Below are positions 5,450 to 33,123 of a DNA stretch of 64,000 bases, piece after piece. The DNA is taken from assembly GCF_003268655.1 (NCBI RefSeq), contig NZ_CP029642.1:2852001-2916000 (forward strand), given 5' to 3'. Within the stretch, counting starts at the first letter, position 1. Every line of letters begins with the position of its first letter. Under the pieces are notes generated by a model that was not told the DNA's origin, ran no database searches, and worked only from the letters and a program-made list of their open reading frames with translations. This stretch comes from Arthrobacter dokdonellae (GTDB taxonomy: Bacteria; Actinomycetota; Actinomycetes; Actinomycetales; Micrococcaceae). Both the position numbers and the translations under genes were made by a program.

Positions 5450-6427
5450 GGCCGCTCGGTCCTCGATTTGTTGAACCCGCGGCAATCCAAACGCTCGCAC
5501 TTTTTCGTGTCCGACTGTCAGTTCAGGTTCGCAGTTTGGCTCACGAGTTTGATCTAAATTCAGGCCCACCAAGGCGGCGAAATCGGAGGCAAATTGCCGT
5601 AAAAATTAGGGAAGTTCATACTCCACTCCCCCAACTAAGAGTCACCCATAAGCACGCTTCGGAGCCGACAATTGTTTCATGGCGGGCCGGACCGAAACTG
5701 CACCCCGAACAACGCAGTGCTTTGAAGTACGAGAGCCCTCGTTTCACAACGGGTGACATGACATCGACGGTGTCCACGGACCTGCAAACGGCCACCAAAC
5801 AGACCATCCGGCGCTACGCTGCAGGTCCACGTCACGTTTTACTCACGTTTTTCAACGAAAACCGACGCCAATAGTTGGCATGCCAAAGGGGCCTGTCGTC
5901 CCGCACTCCCCCGAAAACTACCGGATTTTGACCGTCAACGAAGACTGTTGGCATGAGAATCCTGAGATTCTCTTGGCCGCCGGTTCGAGTCCGGCCCGGG
6001 GCACCAAATGTGGCTCTGACCTGCGGTTTTACTGTTTCAACCATACCCGCGGAAAGGGCCAAATCACGTTCTACTCACGTTTTTGAACGGAAACTTGGTC
6101 ACGTTTTTGGCCCGTGCAGGGTCAATTAATCCGCCTGCTGACGTCACGTTTTTCGCTCGGCGGGCGGGAAAACCGCGGGAATCCGCGGTTTTCCCGGACC
6201 TGAAAGGCCAGGGCCTGTGGCTGCCAACTATTGGCCCTCCGATCACGGAACTCACGGGGCAGAATGTCTTTGGAGAACAAGGACCTCACCTGAACAACGC
6301 CACCCCGGCCACCATCGTCGTTCCCCAAAAACCGTCTGAGACGGCACGAAGCTGGTGGCCAGGAAACCGCAGACGAGCCATGAAACGACAGCCCTCGTTT
6401 CGTCCACGAATGGATGACACCCAAGGG
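5450..6427 (+). repeat. att repeat copy 1 (tRNA 3-prime end flanked by integrase arms)
   Basis: The core at 5970-6006 reads as a tRNA 3-prime end: T-arm GCCGGTTCGAGTCCGGC, acceptor strand CCGGGGC, discriminator A and CCA. There is no tRNA 5-prime half upstream. The left arm has paired TCACGTTTT repeats (5832, 5843); the right arm has related repeats at 6064, 6075, 6099 and 6144, then a perfect hairpin AAAACCGCGG/CCGCGGTTTT (6169-6192). A GAGAATC/GATTCTC hairpin lies just left of the core. Homology to copy 4 continues through TTGGCCCTCCGATC (6229-6242) to 6427, where it ends inside the excisionase start (WMTPK). No other gene is present. Confidence 0.85.
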
Positions 6428-6443
6428 GGGCCGAAAAAGGCTG

Positions 6444-7370
6444 TCAAGACTCCAGATGAAATTCAATTCTGTACCTCATAAACCGGATACCTTTGGCAAT
6501 GGACAATGCACGACGGATTCTAAGGTCGTCCTCTTGAGCGATGATGACGCCTTCAACGGTTTGTCCAGGTTCAAGTAGGGCTTCCTGCACAAACCCCATG
6601 TAGCGCTGGATCTGACCGACCACAGCATCACTGGCCCTTCCACGCTTCAGCTCGACAACGAGGAGCCTAGTGCGGTCCTTACTGATAGCAAGGATGTCCA
6701 TGGGCCCGGTGTCAGTGGGGTACTGCTGGCCGACCAGTTGGCCGTCCTCCTCGTAGATGTCATACTCTCGGCCCAGGATGGTGCTTCGCCAGTTATGGAC
6801 CAGAAAGTCTTCGAGCTGCTTCTCCATATGGAACGCGAGCAGGTCCTCAACCTGGGAGGAGATTGCTTGGGCGATCGGTTGAGCCTGGTCTGCGAGCTGC
6901 GTGAGGGCGGCCAACTCCGCGACGTGGGCGGACAGCTGGAATACAGTCATCAATGAACCTGCTGAGGAAGCCAGGACGGGGCTCATATCGTCCCTGTTCA
7001 ATGATCCCTTCCAGTCAACGCGGCGCCGGTGTGGCAGCTCAGTGCCCGGATGATACTCGTACCCCCCGGCGACGATCCCGTACTGGTATGTTCTGCCCGG
7101 TTTCGGCGCAAGCACCATGTCACCTTCGCTGATGCCCTCACACGCCGCCCACAGGTTGCCCATCGCCAGACCCGCGGCAATACGCGACTTGTCCGGATAC
7201 ATCGCCAAAAACACACTGTTCATCGCACCTCGGAAGACCTGTGCTCCGTGGCCGAGGTGAGGCCTGATGTCATAGTCGCCAATGAAATCCACCCCCAAGT
7301 AGCCTGCCTCGATCATCTCTTCTGCGTTGCGTCCGCCTGCGCCCTGGCGGACCACCCATGCTGTCGTCAT
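6444..7370 (-). CDS. PD-(D/E)XK nuclease (DUF91/NucS-like C-terminal domain), probable restriction-type protein
   Basis: A 308-residue protein. Residues 1-115 look like a small beta domain with conserved GYLGVDFIGDYD, FLAMYPDKSRI and GDMVLAPK, resembling the N-terminal specificity module of Mrr/NucS-type restriction proteins. The C-terminal domain carries the nuclease core: Asp225 in GPMDILAI, Glu240 and Lys242 in VVELKRG, and Gln253 in VGQIQRYMGF, preceded by HMEKQLEDFLVHNW as in DUF91. It should cut DNA; target and modification dependence are unknown. It begins 20 bp from the end of att copy 1, facing it, so it is the first cargo of module A. There is no methylase beside it, which points to a modification-dependent (type IV-like) or conflict role. 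Confidence 0.75.
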   Translation of the reverse strand: MTTAWVVRQGAGGRNAEEMIEAGYLGVDFIGDYDIRPHLGHGAQVFRGAMNSVFLAMYPDKSRIAAGLAMGNLWAACEGISEGDMVLAPKPGRTYQYGIVAGGYEYHPGTELPHRRRVDWKGSLNRDDMSPVLASSAGSLMTVFQLSAHVAELAALTQLADQAQPIAQAISSQVEDLLAFHMEKQLEDFLVHNWRSTILGREYDIYEEDGQLVGQQYPTDTGPMDILAISKDRTRLLVVELKRGRASDAVVGQIQRYMGFVQEALLEPGQTVEGVIIAQEDDLRIRRALSIAKGIRFMRYRIEFHLES

Positions 7371-7534
7371 TACTCTCCCCAGCTATAGTGACCCTCCGCG
7401 GAGCCACTCGTTCTTCATGCATCGAACATAACCCACGTGGCTGACACTAACTCACGGTATCCCGCCAGCAACTACAGGTACGACAGCTGCGCCGCAACGC
7501 AGGCCCTACCAAAAGATTCTCCGACAGCACCTAC

Positions 7535-7960: not shown

Positions 7961-8081
7961 GGTGTAACGCCTTCCAATTGGGCAGGCCCAACATCAATCG
8001 CACAGGACTAACCAGGGTCTCCTCGAGGCGTCCAGCAAAGCCGGGGCAGCCCGCAGTTCCGATCGTTGTAAAGTTCAGTAG

Positions 8082-9173
8082 ATGGATACCCCAGTTAGCT
8101 TGTTCGATTTGAAAGTCCCTGTCAATAGGGCACATCCGCTCTTTCTCGCCATGTGTGACTACAAAGGTGCAGCGGGAGCCCGCGAACTGATGGACCTAAT
8201 CTTCTCGAACTACATAGATGAAGACAAGAACTTCATCAAGGATTTTCAATCAATCGGTTTTAGCTCGCGGGTATGGGAACTATCATTGTTCGCCTACTTC
8301 AGCGAAGCCGACCTTAACTTACTGCCAACCAAGGGAGTCGTTGACTACTTGGTGTCGAACCAGAAATCGATTGTGGCAATTGAAGCGGTCACAAGCCAAC
8401 CCACTGGGCAAGTGGACCGGGGCGTCAAAACGCCATCCTTGAGCGATGTCGTTCCAGATAACTTACCCGCAGCTCGCGATGAGTTCATACATCAGTTTGG
8501 CAAGGCGCTTCGAAAAAAGTGGCAAAAAACCAACGCGGCTGGGCAACGGTACTGGGAACTAGAATGTGTGAAGGGAAAGCCGTTTGTCATCGCGGTGGAA
8601 TCCTTCCACTCAGGTAGTTCGCTATTTCATAGCTTTGGAGTTGCGGCGGAGTACCTTTACGGTCAGTCCACCGTCGCCCAGATCGACTCTAAGGGCCAGC
8701 TTTCGGTTGTGTCCGAGCCAATCGACGAACACCTTTGGAATGGAAAGAGCATCCCGAGCGGAATATTCAACGACCCCGAGTGGACTGACGTAAGTGCCGT
8801 AATCTTTGCCAACGGTGCTTCAGTTCCTCAGTTCAATCGCATAGGAAAGCAAGAGGGGCTGGGCGATCCAGGGACCGTAATTTGGCGCCGAGGTACCTGC
8901 GCCAACCATAACCCGAACAGTGCGACACCGTCCATCTTCAGCTATGAAGTCGGTACGGCCAATGCTCCCGAAGAAGACTTTGCTCAGGCTATCCATGTAT
9001 TTCACAATCCAAACGCCCGGAGGCCCCTTCCCCCAGGATTCTTCCCTCGGGCATCTGAGCATCATCGGCTGCCAGAAAACGGACAGATTCTGACCACACT
9101 CGGGGCGGAGTTTATCCCCTTCGGCAGCGTGACATACATTTTTCAAGCTACCGACCGGAAATCAGAAGCTTGA
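8082..9173 (+). CDS. Hypothetical protein with possible PD-(D/E)XK-like core
   Basis: A 363-residue soluble protein of unknown function. The best-ordered part is residues 55-105, FQSIGFSSRVWELSLFAYF, then VDYLV, then SIVAIEAVTSQPTGQ. The spacing of Glu66, Asp88 and Glu101 resembles a PD-(D/E)XK core in which the usual Lys is replaced. The rest has a long alpha/beta C-terminal part with FAVAVESFHS-like and YEV segments. The family assignment is inference. GC content is lower than in the metabolic regions, in line with island cargo. Start ATG 8082 was chosen because MDTPVSLFDLKVP begins the conserved-looking sequence; a weak ribosome site precedes it. Confidence 0.55.
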   Translation: MDTPVSLFDLKVPVNRAHPLFLAMCDYKGAAGARELMDLIFSNYIDEDKNFIKDFQSIGFSSRVWELSLFAYFSEADLNLLPTKGVVDYLVSNQKSIVAIEAVTSQPTGQVDRGVKTPSLSDVVPDNLPAARDEFIHQFGKALRKKWQKTNAAGQRYWELECVKGKPFVIAVESFHSGSSLFHSFGVAAEYLYGQSTVAQIDSKGQLSVVSEPIDEHLWNGKSIPSGIFNDPEWTDVSAVIFANGASVPQFNRIGKQEGLGDPGTVIWRRGTCANHNPNSATPSIFSYEVGTANAPEEDFAQAIHVFHNPNARRPLPPGFFPRASEHHRLPENGQILTTLGAEFIPFGSVTYIFQATDRKSEA

Positions 9174-9297: not shown

Positions 9298-9984
9298 CTA
9301 GCTTCCGACGGGGAGCTGGACGCCCTTCTTGCCCATTCGCCGAACGGCGAGGGCTTGCACGGCGGTGATGGCGGCCCAGAGGATCTGAATGGCGGAGCCG
9401 GTGAAGAGGCCATGGGGAACACCCTGACTCGCGATTTTTAGGCCCTCGGGAGCGCCCCAGGTGGTGAGAGTTGCAACGAGTGGGCCGACCGCAACACCGG
9501 CACCGAACATCGACAGGACCGCAAGATAGTAAATGGTCACCCCGTAGCCGGCTGTTATCGTAGATCCGCTCATTGAGGCGAATTGCTGCTCTCCGAAAAT
9601 CGGACTGATTGGCTGGACTCGCCCGACGCGAAGACTAGGTTCGTTCAGTGCCCAGTCCTCGATCGTCCGACGAACCATCGCAGCCCTTCCCTGCCGGGAC
9701 AGCTCACCCAGGAAAATGGCGGATGATGCTGCGGCTGCGGCCGGTGCGCCTATCCCCAGAACTGCTGTGACAAGCCAATAGGAGTCAGACCTGTGGGACG
9801 AGAAGTAGACCAGAGTTCCGAAAAGGAGCGCGGAGACCGTGGTGCCCATCCAGGCGATGGCTCGCTGCTGCATCTCACGTGATGTTTTCGTGTCCTCGAC
9901 CAATGCGGTCATGGTCGCAATCATCAGCGGCAAGCCAGCGTTGGCAGGTGCTGGCCTGCCCCTCTTCATCCGAATCGAATCCAT
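9298..9984 (-). CDS. Multi-pass membrane protein, unknown function
   Basis: 228 residues with four predicted membrane segments: AWMGTTVSALLFGTLVYFSS, YWLVTAVLGIGAPAAAAASS, GVTIYYLAVLSMFGAGVAV and LFTGSAIQILWAAITAVQ. A soluble loop of about 45 residues (residues 97-142) separates the two pairs. No transport or enzyme motif is seen. It is the last gene of module A before att copy 2 and converges on the 8082 gene. It may be an unrelated passenger. Confidence 0.5.
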   Translation of the reverse strand: MDSIRMKRGRPAPANAGLPLMIATMTALVEDTKTSREMQQRAIAWMGTTVSALLFGTLVYFSSHRSDSYWLVTAVLGIGAPAAAAASSAIFLGELSRQGRAAMVRRTIEDWALNEPSLRVGRVQPISPIFGEQQFASMSGSTITAGYGVTIYYLAVLSMFGAGVAVGPLVATLTTWGAPEGLKIASQGVPHGLFTGSAIQILWAAITAVQALAVRRMGKKGVQLPVGS

Positions 9985-10309: not shown

Positions 10310-11102
10310 CGTCGACTTATTGGACCCGCTGCAAACCAAACGATCGCGTATCGTACCGTGCAACTGTGTTCCGTACATTCGAAAAGTGAGTCACACAAAT
10401 GATCGCACTTCAGGCCAGCCGGAATGGCAAATTCGGAAGCAAATAGCCTTAAAATTAGGCAAGTTCATGCTCCACTCTCCCAACAAAAGTCACTAAAATC
10501 CATGTTTCGCAGCGGCAACTGGCCGCTTGGCCGACAGGCCCGAAACCACGCCCCGGACAACGCAATGCGATGAAATACGACGGACCGCTTTCGACAACCG
10601 CTGACATGCCGTCCAGTATGCCGATGAACCTGCAAACGGCCATCTAACAACAGCTCCGGTGCTGCGCTGCAGGGTCTCGTCACGTTTTACTCACGTTTTT
10701 CAACGACAACCCATGGCAATCCTCGGCATGTCAACGTGGCCCTGTTGTTCCGCGCTCCCCCGGAAATTGGCGGTTTTTGGCGTCTGTCGAAGTCTGTTGG
10801 CATGAGAGTCCTGAGTTTCTCTTGGCCGCCGGTTCGAGTCCGGCCCGGGGCACCAAATATGGCTCTGACCTGCGGTTATACTATTTTAGCGGGGTGCACG
10901 GAGGGGCCAAATGACGCTTTACTCACGTTATTGAACGAAAAGTTCGTCACGTTTTTGGCCTGCGGAGGTCCAATTTCACCTCTGGTTTTCGTCACGTTTT
11001 TCAACTGGCGAACGGGAACACCGCGGAAATCCATGGTTTTTGCCGTCCTGGAAACATTGAGACGGTGACCGACAAGAATTGGCCCTCCGATCGTCGTACT
11101 CT
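10310..11102 (+). repeat. att repeat copy 2
   Basis: The core at 10819-10855 is identical to that of copy 1 over all 37 bp, with T-arm and CCA intact. Left-arm homology to copy 1 is visible from about 10310 (GGACCCGCTGCAA...) and includes paired TCACGTTTT repeats at 10680-10700. The right arm has repeats at 10923, 10947 and 10992 and ends in TTGGCCCTCCGATC near 11087-11100. No intact gene lies inside. Confidence 0.85.
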
Positions 11103-11126
11103 CTGAATCAATCGAGGTCATAGCCC

Positions 11127-11494: not shown

Positions 11495-11650
11495 ATGATG
11501 GGTCTCATGACTGCTCAACGTCCTCTTCCTGTGGCGATGGCTTCCGGTGCTGTGAAGCTGGGCCTGGCCGGGGAACTCGTGAGCGACGCCGATGGTGGCG
11601 GCACTGTTTTTTCTGCACGGACAAGCCTCGTTTTCCTGGGACGGCGGTGA
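11495..11650 (+). CDS. Short leading frame of the transposase (N-terminal segment)
   Basis: ATG 11495 follows a clear ribosome site (GGAAGG, 11484 onward) and an IS promoter, and encodes 51 residues starting MMGLMTAQRPLPVAMASG. Its GELVSDADGGGTVF leads, in sense, into LHGQASFSWD of the long transposase frame, but in another frame. The join lies at a T6 run (11607-11612): five Ts would make one protein. So this is either the true N-terminus separated by a frameshift, or the upstream frame of a frameshift-controlled transposase. Confidence 0.5.
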   Translation: MMGLMTAQRPLPVAMASGAVKLGLAGELVSDADGGGTVFSARTSLVFLGRR

Positions 11651-13769
11651 TGAGGCCGGCCGCCGTTGGGCAGCGGTGAGACTCGCGGCGCTTAAGGCAG
11701 CCGGCGTCGCTGAGATCGCAGCGGCCTTTGATGTCACACCCACCACGGTGTGGCTGTGGAAGCAACTGCTGACTGAAGGCGGCATTGCCGCGTTGGTGCC
11801 GGAGAAGAAGGGTCCGAAGCGGGCTTCCCGGCTCACCGAGAGTGTCATCGCCCGGATCGTGGAACTGCGCAGCACCGGTTTGTCCCAGCAGGCCGTCGGT
11901 AACGCGGTCGGCGTCTCGGAGTTCAGTGTCCGCCGGGCCTTGAAAATCGCTGCCGAACAAGCCGCTGCTGACGCTGCGGAAACACCCACCGCCGATGAAG
12001 CTGAAGCCTTGGAACCAGCACAGCAGCCCGGGTTGCCGCTCCAGCCGGTCCCGGCACCTCGCGCAGCGGAACGTGCCGCCGCCGGACTGCTTGAATGCGC
12101 GGTCCCAGTGTTTTCCCCGGCCGCCCACATCCGGCACGCGGGATTGTTCCTGGCCTTCCCGGCACTGGAAACCACCGGCCTGCTCAGCTGTGCGAAGGAG
12201 GTGTACGGGGCGTTGCCGAATGGTTTCTACGGCCTCGAGTCCGTCCTGATCGATGCCGTGCTGCGGGCGCTGGCTGGGGAAGCCCGGGCCGAGGGTGCCA
12301 CCCGCTTCGACCCGGTGGAACTCGGACGCGTGTTGGGATTGGATCGGGCCCCGGAAGTAAAAACCATCCGCCGCAGAATCAGCCAACTTGCTGAGGCCGG
12401 CAACGCCGGGGAACTGATCGCTGCCCTGGCCAAACACCACCTTGCCGGCACCGGCCCGGGCGGGGAGAACCTGGCCGCGATCCTCTACGTTGACGGACAC
12501 GTGCGCGCCTACCAAGGCACGAAAAAGATCGGGAAAATCTACTCCACGAGGTTGAAATTCCCGGTCCCGGCTACCGAGGAAACCTGGGTCACAGACGCCC
12601 AAGGATCCCCCGTCTTCGTCGTCATGGCCAAACCGGGCGCGTCCCTGGCCGCCGAACTCCGCGGCCTGCTGCCGGAACTGCGCACAGTGGTCGGGGACGA
12701 GCGGCGCGTGTTGGTCGGCTTCGATAGGGGAGGCTGGTCACCGGCGTTGTTCAAGCACATGGATGCGGCCGGTTTTGACGTGCTGACCTGGCGCAAAGGC
12801 ACCACCAAAGACATCGAAGAGAAATTATTCACTGAGGTCTCCCACACCGACGACCACGGGGAAGAACGCAAATGGTCGGTCGCCGACACGATCGTTGACC
12901 TCCCCCTGGCAACAACGAAGAAAACCGGCGAAGTCTTCAGCATCCGGCAGATCAGCCGGATCGTGGGCACCACCGGTGGAGGCACACGGCAAATCCACAT
13001 CCTCACCACCGACCGTGACCTTCCCGCCGGGGAACTCGTGTATCGAATGGGCAATAGGTGGCGGCAGGAAAACCAGTTCCGCTACGCCCGCATGCACTTC
13101 GAGCTCGACTCCCACGACTCCTACACCAGCATCGACGACGACGAAGACCGGATGGTTCCGGATCCTGCGAAGGCCAAGGCTTACCAAAAAGTCGTTGCCG
13201 CCCGTAATGCCCATGCCGAGGCCGCCGCGATCGCTGACATCAACTTGATGGCACTGAAAACACCGTCCGAGGGCTCCAATGAACTAACTGTCACGGTCAC
13301 CAGCGACATGCACAACCAAGCCATGGCACCGCTCTGGGAGGCAGAAACCGCCTTGATTGCTGCAGAGAAAGCCCACAAGAAGATCCCGGCGAAGCTGCGC
13401 CTCGGGGATCTGAACCCGGGCCAGCAAGTCTTGGATACCGAGGTCAAGCTGATCCACACCGGCATCCGCATGGCCGCCTACAACACCGCGATGACCATCG
13501 CCCGCGAGATCCGCACCAACACCGGATACAAACGCGCGAACCAGGAAGCCCACGCCCTCATGCGCCAAATCTTCAACCAGCCCGGCCACATCGACACCAC
13601 CAAGCCCGGCCAGCTCACCATCACCCTTGACCCTCTGCCGACCAAAGCCAAAACCGCGGCCGCCGCCGAACTCTGCAAGCACCTGAACAGCACTGCAACT
13701 CTCTACCCCGGCAGCAGCCTCATCCTCAAATACGAGATCAAAACCAAGGCTCCGGCTCTCATCAATTAA
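11592..13769 (+). CDS. DDE-type transposase of the IS
   Basis: 725 residues as drawn from ATG 11592, which has no ribosome site of its own. The N-terminal 110 residues carry helix-turn-helix elements (IAAAFDVTPTTVWLWKQLL and LSQQAVGNAVGVSEFSVRRAL). The catalytic domain shows likely acidic residues in LYVDGHVRAYQG (near residue 300), VGFDRGGWS (near 376) and RWRQENQFRYA (near 491), the spacing expected for DDE transposases. It should cut and join at the CAGGACTCC ends. Translation probably begins at 11495 and needs a +1 shift at T6, so expression may be low or absent. Confidence 0.8.
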   Translation: MVAALFFLHGQASFSWDGGDEAGRRWAAVRLAALKAAGVAEIAAAFDVTPTTVWLWKQLLTEGGIAALVPEKKGPKRASRLTESVIARIVELRSTGLSQQAVGNAVGVSEFSVRRALKIAAEQAAADAAETPTADEAEALEPAQQPGLPLQPVPAPRAAERAAAGLLECAVPVFSPAAHIRHAGLFLAFPALETTGLLSCAKEVYGALPNGFYGLESVLIDAVLRALAGEARAEGATRFDPVELGRVLGLDRAPEVKTIRRRISQLAEAGNAGELIAALAKHHLAGTGPGGENLAAILYVDGHVRAYQGTKKIGKIYSTRLKFPVPATEETWVTDAQGSPVFVVMAKPGASLAAELRGLLPELRTVVGDERRVLVGFDRGGWSPALFKHMDAAGFDVLTWRKGTTKDIEEKLFTEVSHTDDHGEERKWSVADTIVDLPLATTKKTGEVFSIRQISRIVGTTGGGTRQIHILTTDRDLPAGELVYRMGNRWRQENQFRYARMHFELDSHDSYTSIDDDEDRMVPDPAKAKAYQKVVAARNAHAEAAAIADINLMALKTPSEGSNELTVTVTSDMHNQAMAPLWEAETALIAAEKAHKKIPAKLRLGDLNPGQQVLDTEVKLIHTGIRMAAYNTAMTIAREIRTNTGYKRANQEAHALMRQIFNQPGHIDTTKPGQLTITLDPLPTKAKTAAAAELCKHLNSTATLYPGSSLILKYEIKTKAPALIN

Positions 13770-14331: not shown

Positions 14332-15648
14332 ATGCTTCGCACAAAACTGACGGGGTCGCGCCGCGTGCGCCTGCCTCGCATGAAGGCGGCCACGGCCGCC
14401 GCAGTCGCCACCGCTTCCCTGCTGGCGCTGAGCGCCTGCACGCCGGGCGCCAGCACCAACAGTTCCGCGCCCGTCAAGTCGATCACCGTTTTGGTGGAGG
14501 CTGGCGGACATGCTGAACTTCAGCCCATCGCCGACCTGTATGCGAAGGACACCGGCGTGAAGGTGAACTTCGTCGAACTGCCCTATAACGGCCTCTTCAA
14601 TCGCGTCAACAGCGAGCTGTCCACGGGGAGCGTGTCCTTCGACGTTGCTGCCTTGGACGCGATCTGGCTGCCGACGTTCGCCGCGGGACTTGAGCCGATG
14701 AATGACCTGTACACCCCGGCGGTGACGGCGGACAACTTCCCGTCCGTCGTCCAGGAAGCCAAAGTCGGCGCCAACTTCGTTGGAATGCCGGCCTTCACCA
14801 ACTCGGAGATCCTTTACTACCGCACGGACCTGTTCAACAACAGTGCCAATCAGGCCGCATTCAAGGCGAAGTATGGCTACGACCTGAAGCCGCCGACGAC
14901 CTGGCAGCAGTACGCGGATGTCGCCGCGTTCTTCACCAAGGACGGCATGTACGGCGCACCTCTTCCGGGAGCCGAGGAAACACAGTACCTTGCGGCGCTC
15001 TCACAGGCAGGCGAAAAAGAGATGGTCCTGAACTCGGCAGGAACCAAATCGACCCTTGGTGACGCAGCCAGCCTCAAAGCGCTGGACTACTACACCAGCC
15101 TCGCGAAGTATGCTCCTGCGGGGGCGGCCGCCGTCGACTGGAATGCGGCGCAGAACCTTTATAACCAGGGCAAGTCGGCGATGATGCTCTTCTGGGCCCA
15201 CGCCTACCGACAGATCCCCACCAGTTCGCCCGTCTACGGCAAGACCGGAGTCGCTCCCATGATCGCCGGCCCCGCCGGTATTGCCGGAGTCCCCGGGCCC
15301 TACTACCTCAGCATTCCCAGGCAGGGAGCGCATCTGTCCGCATCCACGGCATTTGTCAAGTTCGCCTACGACCACAACGCCCTGAGTGCCGACACCTCGC
15401 TCGGGCTGGTCGCGCGAATCTCCGCGCTCAAGCAGTATGAGGACAAGCCGGGCTACGCGGCCTACAAGCCGATGGTGACCACCCTTTCGGCGCCGGCTAC
15501 CATCACTCGTCCGGCGAACGCGAACTGGCAGAACATTGTCAACAACGCGCTGATCCCGATGATTCAGAAGTCCCTGCAGCCCGGGGCGGACAACGCCGCA
15601 CTCCTCAAGGCCGCCGCGGCCCAAATCGATCAGATCGTTCAGCAATAG
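14332..15648 (+). CDS. ABC sugar-binding lipoprotein (inulin-derived difructose anhydride or oligofructose)
   Basis: A 438-residue extracytoplasmic binding protein of the family 1 (MalE-like) type. The signal peptide has a basic N-region, a hydrophobic stretch and the lipobox LSAC (ATASLLALSAC), so the mature protein is a lipoprotein. Family features include LPYNGLFNRVNSELSTG, SFDVAALDAIWLPTFA and YRTDLF. It is the first gene of the operon and lies directly after a LacI-type operator. The two permeases follow 2 bp downstream. No ATPase is encoded here, so a shared MsiK-type ATPase is expected. The substrate is inferred from the downstream GH91, GH32-like and fructokinase genes. Confidence 0.85.
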   Translation: MLRTKLTGSRRVRLPRMKAATAAAVATASLLALSACTPGASTNSSAPVKSITVLVEAGGHAELQPIADLYAKDTGVKVNFVELPYNGLFNRVNSELSTGSVSFDVAALDAIWLPTFAAGLEPMNDLYTPAVTADNFPSVVQEAKVGANFVGMPAFTNSEILYYRTDLFNNSANQAAFKAKYGYDLKPPTTWQQYADVAAFFTKDGMYGAPLPGAEETQYLAALSQAGEKEMVLNSAGTKSTLGDAASLKALDYYTSLAKYAPAGAAAVDWNAAQNLYNQGKSAMMLFWAHAYRQIPTSSPVYGKTGVAPMIAGPAGIAGVPGPYYLSIPRQGAHLSASTAFVKFAYDHNALSADTSLGLVARISALKQYEDKPGYAAYKPMVTTLSAPATITRPANANWQNIVNNALIPMIQKSLQPGADNAALLKAAAAQIDQIVQQ

Positions 15649-15650
15649 CG

Positions 15651-16622
15651 ATGACAGCCATGACTCCTGGGCGGCCGGCCACCCGGCCCGCCGCCCACCG
15701 CCCCAGGCCCGTCCCTTCGCCTACCCGTAAACGGTTCCGGCTGACCGACAATCGGTTTGCTGCCCTTTTGATGCTGCCGGCCGCGCTCTTCCTCGCCGCT
15801 TTTGTTGCCTGGCCCCTGCTTCAGTTCGTCGTCAACAGCTTCTTCCGCTACAACCCCATCGCCGGCGGCCCACACACCTTTGTCGGGTTCGACAATTATG
15901 TCCGGGCCCTGACCTCGGCTGGCTTCAGCAACTCGGTCGTCCGCACCATCGCCTACACCGCGATCGTCGTCACCCTCGAATTCGTCCTCGGCCTGACCGT
16001 GGCCCTGCTCTTTAGCGGGCTGGGTGACCGCTCCCGCTTTTTCCGGACGGTATTCCTCTACCCGCTGATGATCGCCCCGATTGTCGCCGGTCTGCTTTGG
16101 CGCTTTCTGCTCATCGACAATTCCGGGATCGTCAACCAGCTGCTGTTCGACGCGCACCTCACCTCGTCCCCCAACCAGATCCAGTGGTTGAGCGACCCGA
16201 ACATTGCGTTGTTCTCCGTTGCCCTGCCCGATATCTGGCTCACCACTTCCTTCATCTCACTCGTCCTCTTCGCGGGCCTGCAGAACGTCCCCGGCGAGAT
16301 CATCGAGGCGGCACGAATCGATGGAGCACGCTATCCAACCCTGCTCTTTCGGATCATCCTGCCGCTGCTGCGCCCGGTGATCGCCGTCGCGCTCATCGTG
16401 AGAGGCGTCGACGCCGCGCGGGCATTCGACGTAATCGTCGTGCAAACCAATGGTGGCCCCCAGAACTCGACGAATGTCCTTTCGCTGCTCGTCTACAACA
16501 CCCAGATCGCCAACGGAAACCCCGGTCTGGCGAGCGCCATGGGAACGATCTACCTATTTGCGTTGATGGTCATTGCCGTCATCGCTGTTCTCACCATCTG
16601 GCGCCCTGGGAGTGATAACTGA
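15651..16622 (+). CDS. ABC sugar permease, MalF/UgpA type
   Basis: 323 residues with six membrane helices after a basic 35-residue cytoplasmic N-terminus. The coupling-helix signature that contacts the ATPase is present as EIIEAARIDGARYPTLLFRIILPLLRP. It begins 2 bp after the binding-protein stop and overlaps the next permease by one base (TGATG), so the three are co-translated. It pairs with the MalG-type permease in one transporter. Confidence 0.9.
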   Translation: MTAMTPGRPATRPAAHRPRPVPSPTRKRFRLTDNRFAALLMLPAALFLAAFVAWPLLQFVVNSFFRYNPIAGGPHTFVGFDNYVRALTSAGFSNSVVRTIAYTAIVVTLEFVLGLTVALLFSGLGDRSRFFRTVFLYPLMIAPIVAGLLWRFLLIDNSGIVNQLLFDAHLTSSPNQIQWLSDPNIALFSVALPDIWLTTSFISLVLFAGLQNVPGEIIEAARIDGARYPTLLFRIILPLLRPVIAVALIVRGVDAARAFDVIVVQTNGGPQNSTNVLSLLVYNTQIANGNPGLASAMGTIYLFALMVIAVIAVLTIWRPGSDN

Positions 16623-17461
16623 TGAACGGACTCGAGTCACGACGCGGCAGCACCCGCGCCATACTCTGGACGGCACTGACCGTGCTCGTCGTCCTGTACG
16701 CCTTCCCCTTCGTCTACATGCTGTTCACCTCGTTCAAGACGCCGATCGAGACGAACGCCATTCCACCCACGATCCTGCCCTCGACCTGGACGATCCAGAA
16801 CTACATCACTGCCTTGACTACGCAAGGCGTTCCGCAGTCGTTTGTGAACAGCATCCAGACCGCAGTGATAAGCACCGTCGTCTCGCTTGTCCTTGCAGTT
16901 CCCGCGGCCTACGCGGTGACGCGTTACCGCACCCGCCTGGGCCGGGTCTTCATCCTGCTCGCGCTGGTCATGAGGATGGTGCCGGCGATCGTGGTCGGTG
17001 CCCCGCTGATCGCTTTCTTTCACAGTCTCGGACTGTCAGATACCTCCTTCGCCCTTGCACTCGCGCAGACGACGATCTCGCTTCCCCTGTCCATCTGGCT
17101 CCTGGCGAGCTTCTTCGAGGCGGTGCCGGACGAACTCGAAGAGTCCGCGCGGGTCGACGGGTGTTCCCGGCTCGGGTCGCTCTGGAGGATCGTGATCCCG
17201 ATCACCAGGGGAGGATTGGCGGTCGCCGCGATCTTCGCCTTTCTCGCCTCCTGGAACGACTTCATCTTCGCTTTGCTGCTGACCTCGGTGCGCGCTGTCA
17301 CAACCCCTTTGCAGATTGCCAACTTCCAGAGCCAGTTCGGCCTGGACTGGGGCACCATGACCTCACTGGCGGTGCTCTACTCGGTTCCGGTGATCGTCCT
17401 GGCCATCGTTCTCCAGCGGCACATCGTCGCAGGCCTCACACTCGGCGCGGTCAAAGGTTGA
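16622..17461 (+). CDS. ABC sugar permease, MalG type
   Basis: 279 residues with six membrane helices. The EAA coupling motif reads ELEESARVDGCSRLGSLWRIVIPI. Its start overlaps the preceding stop by one base. It forms the second half of the channel with the 15651 product. About 185 bp follow before the LacI gene, without an obvious terminator, so readthrough into the regulator is likely. Confidence 0.9.
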   Translation: MNGLESRRGSTRAILWTALTVLVVLYAFPFVYMLFTSFKTPIETNAIPPTILPSTWTIQNYITALTTQGVPQSFVNSIQTAVISTVVSLVLAVPAAYAVTRYRTRLGRVFILLALVMRMVPAIVVGAPLIAFFHSLGLSDTSFALALAQTTISLPLSIWLLASFFEAVPDELEESARVDGCSRLGSLWRIVIPITRGGLAVAAIFAFLASWNDFIFALLLTSVRAVTTPLQIANFQSQFGLDWGTMTSLAVLYSVPVIVLAIVLQRHIVAGLTLGAVKG

Positions 17462-17645
17462 CCCGTCGCTCCATGAAAGGACCCTTGGCGCACATGCACT
17501 TCTTGCGACCGGACAGCCCGTTTCACGGACTCGCTAACGTGGAGCCTGCGCGCACCCGCCGGGAGTCAACTTCGGCCGCACGGGCGGCAACTGCGACTCG
17601 CTATGGGACGAGTGATCCCACACATCGAAACGGGGAGGAAGAGCT

Positions 17646-18692: not shown

Positions 18693-18704
18693 AAGGTACA
18701 TACG

Positions 18705-20707: not shown

Positions 20708-20877
20708 AGGAACAGTCCCAGCCCACGCGCCGCGCTGTCGTTCAGGGCGCGGCGACCGCGGCCGCGCTCACAGCGCTCAACTTTCTAAACGCCAAACCGG
20801 CGATGGCCGAAACAACGCCACCGCGCCCAACGAAACAGCCCACACCCCAGCGCCGAGTCCCTGTCGGCCTCCTGTAA
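20704..20877 (+). CDS. Orphan Tat signal peptide severed from the downstream GH91 enzyme
   Basis: TTG 20704 overlaps the kinase stop and has a good ribosome site (AAGAGG, 20691). It encodes 57 residues with a twin-arginine signal: QPTRRAVVQGAATAAAL, a hydrophobic core, and a likely cleavage site after AKPAMA. A TAA stop at 20875-20877 ends it. The next gene, 20911, is in the same frame, with 11 sense codons between. So a nonsense codon appears to have cut the secreted pre-enzyme into a leader and a mature domain. Confidence 0.7.
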   Translation: MKEQSQPTRRAVVQGAATAAALTALNFLNAKPAMAETTPPRPTKQPTPQRRVPVGLL

Positions 20878-20910
20878 CCGCCAATTTTCAAACCAGCGAG
20901 AGAGAAACAG

Positions 20911-22113
20911 ATGGAACCCAACGTGTACGACGTCACCGATTGGAAGACCCCTGGGAAACCAATCCACCCCCAAGACGACATCGGCGCCGTGATCAACAGC
21001 ATCATCGCCGACATCAAGAAACGACAGACGAACCAGTCAGACAAGCCTGGCGCCGTCATCTATATCCCGCCGGGCACGTACTCACTGAAGACCCGCGTCA
21101 TCGTCGATGTAAGCTTCCTGACCATCCGGGGATCCGGACATGGATTCACTTCACTTTCGATTCGCTACAACTCGGATACGACCGGATGGCATGAAATCAA
21201 CCCCGGCGGCAGCCACATCAAAGTCGAGAACACCGACGGCAACGCCGAAGCCTTCATCGTCTCCCGCCAGGGAAATCCACGCCTGAGCGCAGTCGCCTTC
21301 GAGAACTTCTGCCTCGACGGTGTCTCATTTGGCAGCAACGAAAACTCCTACCGAAACGGCAAGGTCGGAATCAGCTTCGCAACAGACAACGACTCCGCAC
21401 GAATCCGCGGAATGGGAATGGTCTACCTTGAGCACGCACTGCTCGTCCAGGGCCCGGATGCCCTGGACGTCTCCGGTAACTTCCTCGCCGAGTGCGGAAC
21501 GTGCGTCATGATCATCGGTGGCAGCCAAGCGTCGAAAATTTCAGAGAACCATCTCGGCGCCGGGCCGGTCGGTTTCACGATCTTCGCGGAGAACAGCAAC
21601 GGCCTGCTGATCACCGGCAACAACATCTTCCCGCGAGGAATCGACTCCGTTCACCTCAAGAACTCGTTCCGCTCCAACATCTCCGCGAACCGCCTCCAGT
21701 CCTTCTACCCCGGAAGCATCACACTCGAAGGCGACTGCAAGGAGAACCTGATCAGTTCCAACATGTTCGAGCGCCAGGTCGAGTCGTACGGCCCCTTCAT
21801 CGGCATCGGCAACGGCCTCGACGACGATTTTGGGGTCGTGCAGGTCAACGGCGACGGGAACACCATCACCGCCAACCATGTCACCCTGATCATCCCACCC
21901 GAACAGGTCAAACCAGCCGGCGGAACCGCGGCGATCTTCCGCATCAAGAGCGGCGATCAGAACCTCATCGGCACCAACCACATCATCTCCAACCTCTCGG
22001 TCCACACGGTGGTGCTCGACGTCGGGACCACCAACTCGCACGTCTTCGACAGCGGAACCGAGGCACAGCTGCTGGCGAACTCCACCAGTTACGGATTCCG
22101 CCCCACTCCATAA
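20911..22113 (+). CDS. Inulin fructotransferase-like protein (GH91), without signal and with altered active site
   Basis: 400 residues forming a right-handed beta-helix of the GH91 family: NVYDVTDWKTPG, AVINSIIADIKKRQ, GAVIYIPPGTYSLKTRV, FLTIRGSGHGFTSLSIRYN. GH91 transferases cut inulin ends to difructose anhydrides outside the cell. Two oddities stand out. Its Tat leader is separated by a stop (20704-20877), so this start (ribosome site GAGAGAGAAA) gives a cytoplasmic protein. And at the positions of the GH91 catalytic Asp and Glu, conserved 11 residues apart in the 22201 paralogue (Asp205, Glu216), it has Gly189 and Met200. It may be inactive, a different activity class, or a decaying copy. 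Confidence 0.8.
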   Translation: MEPNVYDVTDWKTPGKPIHPQDDIGAVINSIIADIKKRQTNQSDKPGAVIYIPPGTYSLKTRVIVDVSFLTIRGSGHGFTSLSIRYNSDTTGWHEINPGGSHIKVENTDGNAEAFIVSRQGNPRLSAVAFENFCLDGVSFGSNENSYRNGKVGISFATDNDSARIRGMGMVYLEHALLVQGPDALDVSGNFLAECGTCVMIIGGSQASKISENHLGAGPVGFTIFAENSNGLLITGNNIFPRGIDSVHLKNSFRSNISANRLQSFYPGSITLEGDCKENLISSNMFERQVESYGPFIGIGNGLDDDFGVVQVNGDGNTITANHVTLIIPPEQVKPAGGTAAIFRIKSGDQNLIGTNHIISNLSVHTVVLDVGTTNSHVFDSGTEAQLLANSTSYGFRPTP

Positions 22114-22200
22114 CACACCAGGCACGTAAGGGGGCCCTGTCCGGTTCCCCGATCCCGCGGACGACTGGGACTGAAAAACCACGACACAAAGGGAAAACCT

Positions 22201-23541
22201 ATGTCAAGCAACAACTACTACGACGTGACCGCGTGGCCTGTCGGCAATCCGTCCGAGGACGTCGGTGAAGTCATCAACAGCATCATCGCTGACATCAAGA
22301 AGCGCCAGACGGCCACCGATGGGAGCGACGGCGGAAAGCCAGGCGCGGTGATCTACCTTCCGCCCGGAGACTACCGCCTTCGTACGCCGGTGGTGATCGA
22401 CATCAGCTTCCTCACGATCCAGGGCTCGGGACACGGCTTTACGTCCTCGAGCATCCGGTTCAACGTTCCCGAAGACGAATGGCCTGACCTGCATGAGTTA
22501 TGGCCCGGAGGCAGTCGCATTCTCGTCGACATTCCCCTCGGCCAAGGCCAAGAGGAGCCGAAGGGCGCAGCCTTCTACATTGAGCGGAGCGGGAGCCCGC
22601 GGATCAGTTCGGTCGAGTTCTCCAACTTCTGCATCGACGGGTTGCACTTCAACACCGATGGCTCGGAATTGCATCCAGAAAACACCTACGTCAACGGCAA
22701 GACTGGGATCCATGTAGCAAGCGCCAATGACTCCTTCCGCGTTACCGGCATGGGATTCGTCTATCTCGAGCACGCCCTGACCATCTACAACGCGGACGCG
22801 CTTTCCGTTCACGACAACTTCATCGCCGAATGCGGAAGCTGTATTGAGTTGCGTGGATGGGGACAGGCATCAAAGATCACCGACAACTTGATCGGGGCTG
22901 GATTCAAGGGTCACTCGATTTACGCCGAGAATCACGGGGGGCTCCTAGTCACCGCGAACAACGTCTTCCCCCGCGGGGCGAGCAGTGTCTATCTCAACGG
23001 CGTCACGCGTTCAAGCATCACCAATAACCGCCTGCACTCGTTCTACCCCGGGATGGTGGTGCTGGCAGAGAATAGTTCGGAGAACCTCGTGGCCTCGAAT
23101 CATTTCCTCCGTGACCATGAGCCGTGGACTCCTTTTCTGGGAATCGATAACGGACTGGCCGACCTTGATGGACTTCTCTGTATCAGCGGTAGCAACAATT
23201 CGGTCATCGGCAACCACTTCTCCGAGGTGATCGACTCACAGAGCATCCGTCCAACCGGTGCGACGCCTGTCATCATCCGGCTGACGAAAGGGAGCAGCAA
23301 CTTCGTTTCCAGCAACCACGTAGTGGCAATGGACGTTCACGCTAAGTCAGGTGATAACGCCTTTTCAGCTCAGGTGGACGCCCTATTGACGACCGAGGCT
23401 CCAGACGACCTCGCCGTTACGGCCGTCTTGGTCGATGCCGAATCGGCCCGGAATACAATCCTTGATTCTGGAAGCGAAGCCCAAGTTGTCGTAGATAGGG
23501 CCCTCAACGCCTTTAGGGCCACACCCGTGATCGGTTTCTAG
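22201..23541 (+). CDS. GH91 difructose anhydride hydrolase (DFA-IIIase type)
   Basis: 446 residues, a right-handed beta-helix without signal peptide. It is a close paralogue of the 20911 product over the whole length, with an insertion near residues 90-120. The catalytic pair expected from studied GH91 enzymes is present as Asp205 (HDNFIAEC) and Glu216 (SCIELRG). Length and lack of a leader match the cytoplasmic difructose-anhydride-III hydrolase known from Arthrobacter, which yields inulobiose. It would act after the ABC importer and before the GH32-like enzyme and fructokinase. The activity assignment rests on family knowledge; transferase activity cannot be excluded. Confidence 0.8.
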   Translation: MSSNNYYDVTAWPVGNPSEDVGEVINSIIADIKKRQTATDGSDGGKPGAVIYLPPGDYRLRTPVVIDISFLTIQGSGHGFTSSSIRFNVPEDEWPDLHELWPGGSRILVDIPLGQGQEEPKGAAFYIERSGSPRISSVEFSNFCIDGLHFNTDGSELHPENTYVNGKTGIHVASANDSFRVTGMGFVYLEHALTIYNADALSVHDNFIAECGSCIELRGWGQASKITDNLIGAGFKGHSIYAENHGGLLVTANNVFPRGASSVYLNGVTRSSITNNRLHSFYPGMVVLAENSSENLVASNHFLRDHEPWTPFLGIDNGLADLDGLLCISGSNNSVIGNHFSEVIDSQSIRPTGATPVIIRLTKGSSNFVSSNHVVAMDVHAKSGDNAFSAQVDALLTTEAPDDLAVTAVLVDAESARNTILDSGSEAQVVVDRALNAFRATPVIGF

Positions 23542-23939
23542 TCGGCTCATGCGGTTGAATCCCAGCAACCATCGCAAGCCCGGCGATGCCCTGGGAATCG
23601 CCAACATCGCGGGCACCTCATGGCACTGACGTCATAGGCGGGTATCCTGTCGTACGTTCGATCGGGCAGGCGTGCTCCTCAGTTGCCTCCCCTCCCGTTC
23701 CCGGCCCCATCAACCGTGACCTGGGAGATCCGGAAGACAACACGCAATCTGGAGTAGCCAGCCCTGAAGGGCCACCCCCAGCGAGACTCCGAACGGTCGG
23801 TGCCCATTCAGACTCCATTGCTGTTCTCAAATCGAGCCCCAGAGCCTCCGATCTCGCCTGACAATCCGCATCCGTCCCGGCCCAATCGACCAACACATTG
23901 ACAGTCCGAAAAAGCCATAGATATTTCGATCCCATGACC
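23542..23939. other. Intergenic, no gene recognised
   Basis: About 400 bp after the operon, with no clear terminator. A minus-strand stretch reading NVLVDWAGTDADCQARSEALGLDLRT looks weakly coding but has no start signal and no recognisable family. Confidence 0.45.
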
Positions 23940-24408
23940 AATGAACCTGCGAACGATGAATGGAAGGGCAGGTCTGTGGCTCGATTGCAGCCCTGCTCAC
24001 GTTTTACTCACGTTTTTCAACCAAAACCCAAGGCAATCCTTGGCATGTCAAAGGCGGCCAAGCTTGCCGCACTCCCCCGGGATACACGGTTTTTGGCGGT
24101 GGATGACAACCGCTGAAACCAGTGTCCTGAGTTTCTCTTGGTCGCTGGTTCGATTCCAGTCCGGGGCACAAAAAGGGCCTCTGACCTGCGGTTATACTGG
24201 TTTCGCTGGGTGCGCTGAGGTGCCAAATCATGTTCTACTCACGTTTTTGGACGAAAGGTTGGTCACGATTTTGGCGTAAATAGGGCCTAATCAGATCCCG
24301 TTTGTCGTCACGGTTTTCAACCTGAGGGTGGAGAATCCCCGGAATTCCGCGGATTCTCCGGGCCCGAACGATTCTGGGCTGTGGCTGCCAAAATTTGGCC
24401 CTCCGATC
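23940..24408 (+). repeat. att repeat copy 3 (most divergent)
   Basis: The core at 24135-24171 reads CTCTTGGTCGCTGGTTCGAT and then TCCAGTCCGGGGCACAA. The T-stem differs from the other copies by a C-to-T and a matching G-to-A change that keep pairing. The terminal CCA is lost. Left-arm TCACGTTTT repeats lie at 23998-24017; right-arm repeats at 24239, 24262 (CACGATTTT) and 24308. The downstream hairpin is GAGAATCC/GGATTCTC (24331-24358). The block ends with TTGGCCCTCCGATC near 24395-24408. Confidence 0.85.
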
Positions 24409-24672
24409 GTCCGACACTCGGCATTGAACACCGCCGGCCAGCCAAGACCTCTCCCTGAAACTACAAGCAGCCCGGCGCAGCAGCTCCGATCCCCAGGCTC
24501 ACGTAGTTCGGCAATAGTGCTTTGAATCTGCGGCTCAGCGAACGAAGCCGGCCTACCCATTCCAGCCCGACTTTCTTCCGGCCGGCCAGGCTCCCAACTC
24601 GTCCCGTAAGAGGAACCTCCTGCGGGACATTTTCGGCGTTAGTTGGGACTTCATGGTGCTAAGTTGCTCCAC
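24409..24672. other. Intergenic, no gene recognised
   Basis: Sequence between att copy 3 and the convergent methyltransferase gene. No xis remnant is visible, unlike copies 1 and 4. Confidence 0.5.
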
Positions 24673-30850: not shown

Positions 30851-30907
30851 GTGTCCCGTATACCCCGCCCGAGAATAAGCCCGGTGACGGGAGGGTATAC
30901 GGGACAC
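30851..30907. promoter_or_regulatory. 15-bp perfect inverted repeat
   Basis: GTGTCCCGTATACCC (30851-30865) and GGGTATACGGGACAC (30893-30907) are separated by 27 bp. It lies in a gene-free stretch. It could be a paired operator, a recombinase site or the fused ends of a lost element. Confidence 0.65.
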
Positions 30908-30977
30908 ATCTCAACTTCGATTTCAGGGGAGTGGGTGGCGGTGCGAACTGGTCCCGATCTACAGTGTCCTGCTATCG

Positions 30978-31136
30978 TCACCGTCTCGAGAAAGTCATTC
31001 CTTCGTGTCCGAGGTGATGTTTCTGTTCTCGCAGAAGGCAGCCCCGAACCTCAACGAACATGCGCTTCTTATGCTCCTCCACGGCAATCTGGCCAAAGGG
31101 GTGCTTCGCCAACATCTCTTCGGTAGATGTTGCCAT
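30978..31136 (-). pseudogene. Truncated HigA-like antitoxin
   Basis: 52 residues from ATG 31136 (preceding ACAGG): MATSTEEMLAKHPFGQ, VEEHKKRMF, VRGCLLRE. This matches the N-terminus of the intact antitoxin at 4733-5029 (MARSMEETLTK, VDEHRKRML, YRVRE) and of the family, but stops before the helix-turn-helix. It is a remnant of a second toxin-antitoxin pair. No toxin is recognisable upstream. Confidence 0.55.
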
Positions 31137-31331
31137 CCTGTGCCTCCCTCCACATCTTCAATCAGCGTTGACTCCGTCGCTGCCCAAGAGCATCTACCAA
31201 TAAATTCAAGTTCCACGAGGTCCTGACATGTCCGCGACAGGCCAGACCATCTTGCTTGTTGTCGTTGACGAACATGACCGGGCTGAAAACCGGAGGTGGT
31301 GGACGTTGATTCAGCCACGGTGGCTCTGCCG

Positions 31332-32042
31332 TCAAGGTTTCGGACGTGCCTTCAGGGTAGCGCCGATTTTCTCCACGGATGCGAACCAGGACAGCAGGTC
31401 CTGGTCGATAGCGCCGATGACGGTCCTCATGTTGGCCAGCTGTGCAGCGATGCTGCTATTGATGAGTGGTTCTAAATGCGCCACCCTGTTCCTTAGGCGG
31501 TAGACACCGTCGACCGCCCGTTCAAGTTCGTGGACCGGTCGCCGAAGATGCGGAAAAGCATGGTGAAGGGCTTCATCCCAGAGCAGTTGCTTGCCCAGGT
31601 CATTGCGTCCTGGGAGAAGGAATCGCCAGGTCCCCATGGACAAAGCGGCAAGAATGTCAGCGTGCAACGGATCACGCTGATCCTTGGGCCGGGCCCTGGT
31701 TGAATGACCGGCGCGATTCTTCGCTTCTGGCAGGTCCCGGCCAACGACGCGCTCCAGCAAGATTGAAGGATCCAGGAGCCAATCGCTGGAATGCGACTCC
31801 CCCGTGGTCGGGTCAACCTGACCGGCGTTCCAAACGCACAATTGCTCGTCCATAGCGTTGCGCAAGACGACCTCAAAAATGTGCAGCGCCTCGTATACGG
31901 CCCCAGAAAGTTCAACGTTCCACCGGTAGAGCCGCACAGCACCCTGCAGGCTCCCAGCCGTGTCGAGGTACGGCGCCAACCTCGGCCGACTCAGCCGCCG
32001 CAGCAGGATCGCCTCAACACTTATTTGTTCGCGCCTGTTCAC
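31332..32042 (-). CDS. Abi-like (abortive infection) HEPN protein
   Basis: 236 residues. The N-terminus LSRPRLAPYLDTAGS, LYRWNVELSGAVYEALHIFEVVLRNAMDEQL is the hallmark of Abi-like proteins found in defence loci. Near the C-terminus YRLRNRVAHLEP gives Arg184-Asn185-x3-His189, an RX4H HEPN ribonuclease motif. It would act as an RNase toxin in phage exclusion. It stands alone, 177 bp from att copy 4, so it is the last cargo gene of module C. ATG 32042 is the only sensible start. Confidence 0.75.
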   Translation of the reverse strand: MNRREQISVEAILLRRLSRPRLAPYLDTAGSLQGAVRLYRWNVELSGAVYEALHIFEVVLRNAMDEQLCVWNAGQVDPTTGESHSSDWLLDPSILLERVVGRDLPEAKNRAGHSTRARPKDQRDPLHADILAALSMGTWRFLLPGRNDLGKQLLWDEALHHAFPHLRRPVHELERAVDGVYRLRNRVAHLEPLINSSIAAQLANMRTVIGAIDQDLLSWFASVEKIGATLKARPKP

Positions 32043-32219
32043 AGTAGTAAACTGTAGTTGAAGACAGGGGCAGGTTCCCTGTTATGGATTACTGAGGGTC
32101 CCGTAGCCAGGAGCTGCGGGGCCCTCAGCTTTTAACGCCTGTCACCAACCAAGACGCTCCCGGCGCGTTCGTCGCCCATTCTCTCCCTGGCAATCCCCGA
32201 GGGTATTCCGCGACCTACT

Positions 32220-33123
32220 AGCCGTTCGCAATTTGGCTTTCAGAATTGATCCCAATTTGGGCTGACGGAGTCGGCCTTCTGGAGGCAGACGATCCCCAAA
32301 TCATGGCAAATGACGCTCCAATCCCCCTCCAAAAAATCACCAATCAGAATTTTTGACGCCGGTCTTGGCCGCACGTCAGGCGGGACCGAAACCACGCCCT
32401 GAACAACGCGAACCGTTGACACACGACGGCCGTCCTTTCACAACTGGTGACATGCCACCAGCCGTGCCGATGGACCTGCAAACGGTCATCAAACAGCAGC
32501 ACCCGCGCTTCGCTGCAGGTGCTCGTCACGTTTTACTCACGTTTTTCAACGAATACCCATGCCAATCCTTGGCATACCAAAGGGCCCTATTGTCCCGCAC
32601 TCCCCCGGAAATTGGCGGTTTTTGTCGTTGAATGGCAACGATTGGCATGACAGTCCTGAGATTCTCTTGGCCGCCGGTTCGAGTCCCGCCCGGGGCACCA
32701 AATGTGGCTCTGACCTGCGGTTTTACAGTTTGGGCCGGGTGCGTCGAGGGGCCAAATCACGTTCTACTCACGTAATTGAACGAAAAGTTGGTCACGTTTT
32801 TGACATTTTCGGGGCCTAATCCGACTTCATTCGACGTCACGTTTTTCAATCTGCGGGCGGGAAATCGGCGGAAATCCGCGGTTTTTTCAGACCCTGGTGG
32901 TTTGAGTCCGTCGCTGCGAAATATTGGCCCTCCGATCGCCGTACTCACGGGGCAGGATGTCTTTGGAGGACAAGGAATTCGCCTGCACAACGGCAACCCG
33001 GCCGCCATCGTCGCACCGCCAATACAGCGCCTAGAGCGGCACGAAGTTGGCGACTAGGACACCGAGGGCGAGCCATGAAACGACAGTCCCGGTTTCGTCG
33101 ACGAGTGGATGACGCCCAAGGAG
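32220..33123 (+). repeat. att repeat copy 4 (with intact xis/int head)
   Basis: The core at 32664-32700 carries the tRNA 3-prime end with CCA, with one T-stem mismatch (CCCGC for CCGGC). Left-arm TCACGTTTT repeats lie at 32526 and 32537; right-arm repeats at 32757, 32768, 32792 and 32837; TTGGCCCTCCGATC follows near 32924. It runs directly into the excisionase and integrase genes, so this copy shows what the others have lost. Confidence 0.85.

Follow-up and report, generated by a model that had tools for sequence, protein, structure and literature searches.

A probable accretion array of conjugative and cargo-bearing elements behind a tRNA-Arg(TCT) gene of Arthrobacter dokdonellae

How did four direct copies of the 3' part of a tRNA come to divide one stretch of the Arthrobacter dokdonellae genome, and are the blocks between them mobile elements in their own right? 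The stretch in question, here called the window, is a segment of 64,000 nucleotides (G000:C1:2852001-2916000) from a genome, G000, of 4.53 Mb in two contigs. Each copy lies at the heart of an attachment (att) site, in which arms to the left and right enclose a core of tRNA origin, all on the + strand: site 1 occupies 5648-6261 (core 5969-6004), site 2 10496-11107 (core 10818-10853), site 3 23930-24424 (core 24134-24169) and site 4 32342-32954 (core 32663-32698). On comparative sequence evidence, the region is very probably an accretion array, in which an integrative conjugative element (ICE) stands in tandem with cis-mobilizable elements (CIMEs).

The four cores had been recognized in a first-pass annotation made from the letters of the window alone, with which our core starts (5969, 10818, 24134 and 32663) agree within ±1 bp. 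The conserved arms and shared endpoint that it described were likewise recovered: the outer endpoint TTGGCCCTCCGATC occurs at exactly four + strand positions in the window (6231, 11079, 24395 and 32924), and a 116-nt repeat family is common to all four copies, with 76-88% identity to copy 1. Longer repeat families (300 nt) join the copies three at a time, the homology of copies 1 and 4 extends further right (to 6426 and 33121), and a profile built with these copies included matches ~610 bp at every site but site 3, where the match is 495 bp. A chance repeat is ruled out, since a search for 25 bases of the core, tolerating up to 3 mismatches, gave 3 matches in the window and none in 100 shuffles; copy 3, with the T-stem variant C in its core, is too diverged for this pattern. 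Two other candidate identities were rejected: a search of the window for known RNA families (Rfam, E up to 1) hit just one feature, a group II intron tail away from the att sites that was matched twice, and site 1 had no match in either the phage or the plasmid collection. The intron tail lies at 46962-47028 (-) and scores 39.8 bits against a gathering score of 40 for RF00029.

The cores correspond to the 3' part of tRNA-Arg(TCT), in line with the earlier proposal of a tRNA 3' end as the target. ARAGORN finds no tRNA gene in the window, and the intact gene lies to its left, as had been predicted: tRNA-Arg(TCT), with the matching 3' end, is located at G000:C1:2799851-2799926, 52 kb away. The acceptor strand foreseen for it, GCCCCGG, was nearly right, the gene beginning with GCCTCGG and thus having one G.U wobble. 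Searching the genome with the 25-base core piece gave nine places, eight of them on one strand inside 212 kb with the tRNA gene as the leftmost; a wider scan to the right of the gene revealed 10 non-tRNA cores, all in one orientation and spread over 212 kb. Their starts on G000:C1 are 2857969, 2862818, 2876134 and 2884663 (the four of the window), 2917362, 2938014, 2946949, 2966542, 2999960 and 3011684, some of these cores being decayed. At two further sites (G000:C1:3039987-3040296 and 3059876-3060060) the core is deleted and the left arm joins the right arm directly, the former looking like a deletion between the arm repeats TCACGTTTTTCAA; they stretch the array to 260 kb. The count of four cores, sound as far as it went, is an artefact of the window edge, and it was incomplete also in respect of an integrase-bearing conjugative-type element to the left of the first core. 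An intact tRNA with an element-borne 3' end, together with a direct repeat at the far end, places the array among the tRNA-targeting tyrosine-integrase islands. Elsewhere in the genome, ~750 kb from the array, a lone core with a right arm stands inverted at G000:C1:2051236-2051303 (-). A 1.5-kb insertion sequence is found in or against att sites in two genomes (G000:C1:2938223-2939747; G005:C1:1255433-1256919 and 1272042-1273562), the G005 copies having 80-82% identity to that of G000.

Were each module, namely the stretch from core to core, a single element, a match would be expected between its two ends; were the site the unit, the match would be expected between the two arms of a site. The arms are of three kinds, distinguished by the repeated words TTTTACTCACG, TTTACTCCCC and TTTTACTCATC, for which we use the codes CACG, CCCC and CATC. 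The set examined comprised 50 modules, 42 of them typed at both ends, and 75 cores, 49 with both arms typed, with 8 modules and 26 cores left out as untyped or tRNA. With a typing devised after the arms of this first set had been seen, and with some sites typed from a single motif count, the two ends of a module agree in code in 35/42 cases (expected 17.6; 0 of 20,000 permutations) and the two arms of one site in 22/49 (expected 18.1; p=0.13). Permuting within arrays, the agreement of module ends persists when tRNA-proximal modules are excluded (28/34, expected 19.5, p=0.00025) and site arms show no excess (22/49 versus an expected 23.8). An alignment-score version that dispenses with typing gives r=0.50 for module ends (0 of 2000; 39 modules) and r=0.13 for site arms (80 of 2000; 43 sites). 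As agreement in code far exceeds expectation for the two ends of a module and does not clearly do so for the two arms of a site, the modules behave as separate elements, each with a core at either end. Accordingly, both attL and attR of one element, i.e. arms and core at each end, are retained, as in a CIME. The three small modules of the window have CACG at both ends, sites 1 to 4 all being of code CACG/CACG.

The genome G017 of the same genus offers a simpler case, having one 3.7-kb element at the tRNA with a far core that lacks the right arm. The right 1.7 kb of module 3 of the window, which ends at site 4, is 95% identical to the end of this element, as against ~70-83% identity for the chromosome next to the tRNA; this module is fourth in line in G000 and stands directly at the tRNA in G017. 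The homology reaches the core, as anticipated by the first-pass annotation for comparisons with related strains, and the G017 element joins the arm-code test in upholding its view of several accreted elements bounded by cores. Further, the core at the G017 tRNA is of variant B and the far core of the element is of variant A, a pattern that fits the expectation if the 3' end of the element replaced, and so displaced, the native end of the gene. Such a swap would imply that the exchange falls to the left of the T-arm. An 8-bp segment on the 3' side of the anticodon loop, TCTCTTGG, is identical in 69/75 cores, and the bases just to its left differ between the tRNA and the internal sites. The T-stems of the cores vary (GTGGG/CCCGC, GCCGG/CCGGC, GCTGG/CCAGY, GTCGG/CCGAC and GCAGG/CCTGT), and all five pairs are kept in 52/63 non-tRNA cores (7/12 in a second set), with at least one unpaired position in the other 11, site 4 included; the cores were sought with four fully paired T-stem templates at up to 10 mismatches, which favours paired cores. 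Among the 19 tRNA genes recognized in the sampled stretches, which exclude the divergent one of G005, five (in G003, G017, G016, G011 and G006) have a variant other than the common one.

The window opens with the right-hand end (1-5647) of a 58-kb tRNA-proximal element, the genes for its relaxase, type IV secretion system (T4SS) and integrase being outside, to the left. The element codes for a MobF relaxase (above the curated cut-off), a VirD4-like coupling protein, a VirB4-like ATPase and an integrase 92% identical to that of the window, and also for TrbL/VirB6, NlpC/P60 and ArdC-like proteins, with TraG-D_C and TrbL above the Pfam cut-offs. Thus, integrase, relaxase, coupling protein and T4SS ATPase are combined in one att-bounded module, which by its gene content looks like an ICE. 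It additionally carries genes of the defence type, for DruE-, DpdE- and DrmMI-like proteins and a UG17 reverse transcriptase. We surveyed the 50 modules using the window integrase and five ICE proteins as queries (E 1e-20, at least 60 residues). Relaxase and integrase homologues occur together in 6/50 modules, all six of which belong to the 10/50 that are tRNA-proximal, these ICEs being homologous, so that their position does not stand for six independent events. In 39/50 modules, with a median length of 9.3 kb and including the three small ones of the window, none of the six proteins has a match, a count that covers these six queries, unrelated integrase or transfer families not having been searched in every module. 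Within this search the modules share with CIMEs the absence of detectable integrase and transfer genes. Because they are so frequent, modules that lack an integrase are the usual case, and there is no need to assume a recent loss for every one of them; the earlier claim that the three modules of the window are cargo modules holds, and its corollary that all three once had xis and int is not established, as a piece of the xis start survives at site 1 alone. This remnant (6262-6426, +), with the P'-side leader and the first bases of xis, was detected by blastn of the site-4 xis region and as repeat family D7, and the homology to site 4 ends with it.

The integrase of the window belongs to the element that begins at core 4. 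Directly behind this site come a small HTH_17 protein (33109-33276, +), xis-like by its position, and a tyrosine integrase with a Phage_integrase family match (33356-34471, +); the body of the element (33277-64000), with metabolic genes besides xis-int, continues beyond the window, the next recognized core being the decayed one at G000:C1:2917362, 1.4 kb past its edge. In the ICEs of G000 and G001 the integrase gene is situated ~9-10 kb before the far core, and integrase genes are found in the first module behind several of the tRNAs. Both integrases of the G000 array are full-length and free of stops, and tblastn over 380 kb gave no convincing fragment besides these two copies. Relatives of the window integrase were found at 12 named loci, ten from Arthrobacter, one from Pseudarthrobacter and one labelled Sporosarcina; a viral source was considered and rejected, with one viral contig only, at 60% identity. 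Tyrosine integrases bind the arms through their N-terminal domain. Over the first 50 residues, four other integrases from CACG modules are 78-90% identical to that of the window, whereas three from CCCC modules are 38-40% identical there and 70-83% in the rest, and one of unassigned code is 42% identical; in this comparison some integrase-bearing modules are typed at one end only and CATC has no assigned integrase. The pattern fits an arm-binding domain that would differ with the arm code.

The cargo of the modules is varied. Module 1 contains genes for a nuclease-like protein with a NucS_C domain (6444-7370, -), a PADLOC PDC-S02 candidate for defence, and for a PD-T7-1-like candidate phage-defence protein (8082-9173, +). 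The gene at 9298-9984, beside the left arm of site 2, was suspected to be Abi-like and has neither a family match nor a relative in the stretches searched. Near the left end of module 2 is a transposase gene (11592-13769, +; PF21804, with a Transposase_29 domain), related DNA being present at two places in the sampled stretch of G002. The module also contains putative fructan uptake and breakdown genes (14332-23541, +), the substrate being suggested by the families: an ABC transporter, a LacI regulator, a GH32 protein, a PfkB kinase and two inulin-fructotransferase-like beta-helix proteins. Module 3 carries a candidate defence gene (31332-32042, -) that is Abi_2-like, below the Pfam cut-off, and PD-T4-5-like. 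Its close homologues (90-97% protein identity) occur at six places in four other genomes, in every case to the left-arm side of an att site (in one, an insertion sequence intervenes), and a DNA search of 23 genomes returned the same six places. Two weaker homologues (32-34%), in G003 and G005, are within ~0.5 kb of an att left arm.

The genus set comprised 23 genomes, i.e. G000 and 22 others, in which the compared stretches were chosen where earlier searches had matches and are not a random sample. Site-4 DNA has matches in 23/23 genomes (E 1e-6 or better), for some of them little: in G018 the sole match is the tRNA end and in G015 there is a single match of 38 bp. Conservation of the chromosome to the left of the tRNA extends to 23/23 genomes. 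In 19 genomes the core is in place at the 3' part of tRNA-Arg(TCT), in most cases with the same right arm after it. Long arrays are present in G012 and G003; G001 has one further core within the sampled 100 kb, 48 kb from the tRNA and with a right arm of another code; more may lie beyond. At least three sampled arrays are located away from the tRNA (G005 1255-1335 kb, G012 2641-2677 kb and G017 420-438 kb). The syntenic place in G005 (G005:C1 ~1993800-1993940) is occupied by a markedly divergent tRNA-Arg(TCT)-like sequence, behind which a segment similar to the usual right arm is recognizable; the array of this genome, at 1255085-1335071, has no recognized tRNA adjoining it. Possibly, a replaced tRNA ended the site in G005; an Arthrobacter phage is reported to carry a tRNA-Arg(TCT) (PMC13097055).

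We propose that elements with related tyrosine integrases would have inserted at the 3' part of tRNA-Arg(TCT), with a crossover that probably falls within the 8-bp segment. With each insertion the gene would acquire the tRNA 3' end brought by the newcomer, and earlier elements would be displaced outward. The series of modules seen today would be the outcome: every module opens with a right (P') arm and closes with a left (P) one, neighbours meet in a two-armed att site, a member that looks conjugative and has an integrase stands next to the tRNA, and most of those beyond it are cargo modules in which no mobility genes are detectable. Such modules could leave singly or in blocks through recombination, catalysed by a resident integrase, between any two cores of matching code, and could transfer in cis with the ICE.

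How does this proposal fare against other explanations of the same repeats? That they are an unrelated family containing a tRNA-like piece by chance deserves hardly any credence: the outer arms are indeed conserved far from the core and core-less copies exist, but the core is the exact 3' part of tRNA-Arg(TCT), in place at the gene in 19 genomes, integrase genes occupy the first module behind several tRNAs, and the arm codes match module by module. It is rather improbable that homologous recombination between the long similar arms, and not an integrase, adds and removes modules, leaving the att sites as mere repeats. The core-less site at 3039987 would suit such exchange, as would the fact that module 3 and its G017 relative share mainly the right end; yet the arm codes differ across many cores, which leaves little homology for exchange while the cores are kept, and G017 fits a precise swap of the tRNA 3' end. 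A more serious contender, though still an unlikely one, is a fossil array of long-fixed remnants, in which nothing in the window moves and only the ICE perhaps does. The truncated xis at site 1, the two sites without cores and the unpaired T-stem positions in 11/63 cores, that of site 4 among them, speak for it. Set against these are the persistence of repeated arm motifs at sites between integrase-less modules, the intact T-stems of the other 52 cores, the excess identity of module 3 to G017 over that of the tRNA-adjacent chromosome, and the two stop-free integrases resident in the array.

The ICE-CIME accretion array itself has to accommodate several observations that tell against it. The ends disagree in code in 7/42 modules, some of which may be explained by lost cores, and a second, small contig set gives agreement in 3/5 modules (expected 2.6) and 0/6 sites. 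A T-arm that travels with the right arm should make the core variant follow right-arm similarity; the observed link is weak, with a mean difference of 0.02 that 99 of 5000 permutations reached, and the same permutation comparison shows no link with the left arm. The VirB4-like match is significant and, like the VirD4-like one, below the NCBIfam cut-offs, the integrase of G002 is in two pieces, and the right-hand chromosomal end of the G000 array was sought and not found. Finally, the fructan cluster occurs in G010 on an 11.5-kb contig with no att match, where breakpoints are unreadable, and module 1 nuclease DNA in G022 in a sampled 13-kb stretch with none, suggesting that cargo may also move otherwise.

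If the accretion array is accepted, a bolder scheme can be tentatively entertained, although we would put it at well short of even chances. The N-terminal arm-binding domain might confer at least three integrase specificities, read as a 4-base code (CACG, CCCC or CATC), that share the 8-bp crossover, with integrase-less defence and metabolic cassettes being kept mobile by a code-matched ICE. The tRNA would then serve as an addressable bank of blocks that are lifted, transferred and re-filed, with T-stem compensation keeping the tRNA at work. In any event, the module boundaries of a large island are shown, with an internal control, to be readable from att-arm codes, and one genus offers a natural series, from one 3.7-kb element to ten non-tRNA cores, for studying the mobility of integrase-less cargo. 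The co-occurrence of an ICE at the head of the array, defence cassettes and swapped tRNA 3' ends makes cis-mobilization and the matching of integrase to arm directly testable in a soil bacterium.

Arrays in which many cargo modules are delimited by the sites of one recombinase, which could act on all of them, are familiar from integrons and superintegrons. The present array differs from these in its elements of 3-66 kb, two-armed att sites in one orientation, position behind a tRNA and phage-type integrase; the latter matches Phage_integrase and Phage_int_M, and the sites are tRNA 3' ends, attC not having been searched for as such. The definition of a CIME as an element that has retained attL and attR but possesses neither integration nor transfer genes, as given in the accessible portion of PMC5704250, fits the modules described here, as does the tandem with an ICE at the same target. 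The tandems reported in that portion include ICE-IME, CIME-IME and SGI1 arrays of up to six copies, whereas the present array has ten non-tRNA cores and modules that differ from one another and mostly lack an integrase, its arm codes coming from at least two types of integrase. The PAISt of Streptomyces turgidiscabies, likewise an actinobacterial ICE with a tyrosine integrase, undergoes modular excision via one internal and two flanking repeats; it differs in using an 8-bp palindrome at a protein gene and in having one internal repeat (PMC4057263, in the sections available). As far as our searches go, the kind of system is known, and the scale, the three arm codes on one crossover, with integrase N-termini that differ, and the compensated tRNA ends are new within the literature covered; among the papers listed by our limited searches of one open-access library, no title or opening of an abstract reports such an array in Arthrobacter. 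The closest parallel found, as described in the available part of PMC3146451, is the ssrA island array of Dehalococcoides, where many tandem islands downstream of ssrA have repeats of the 3' end of that gene as their boundaries, some of them have no integration genes and are proposed to be cis-mobilizable, and the cargo is varied. Both systems thus consist of tandem islands behind a single RNA gene, with 3'-end repeats, integrase-less members and diverse cargo. The Dehalococcoides islands, according to the same part of that source, depend on a CcrB-like serine recombinase and a 20-bp ssrA repeat, all within 100 kb, whereas the Arthrobacter array combines tyrosine integrases, a tRNA-Arg target, long two-sided arms of three codes and a conjugative-type element at its head over 212-260 kb.

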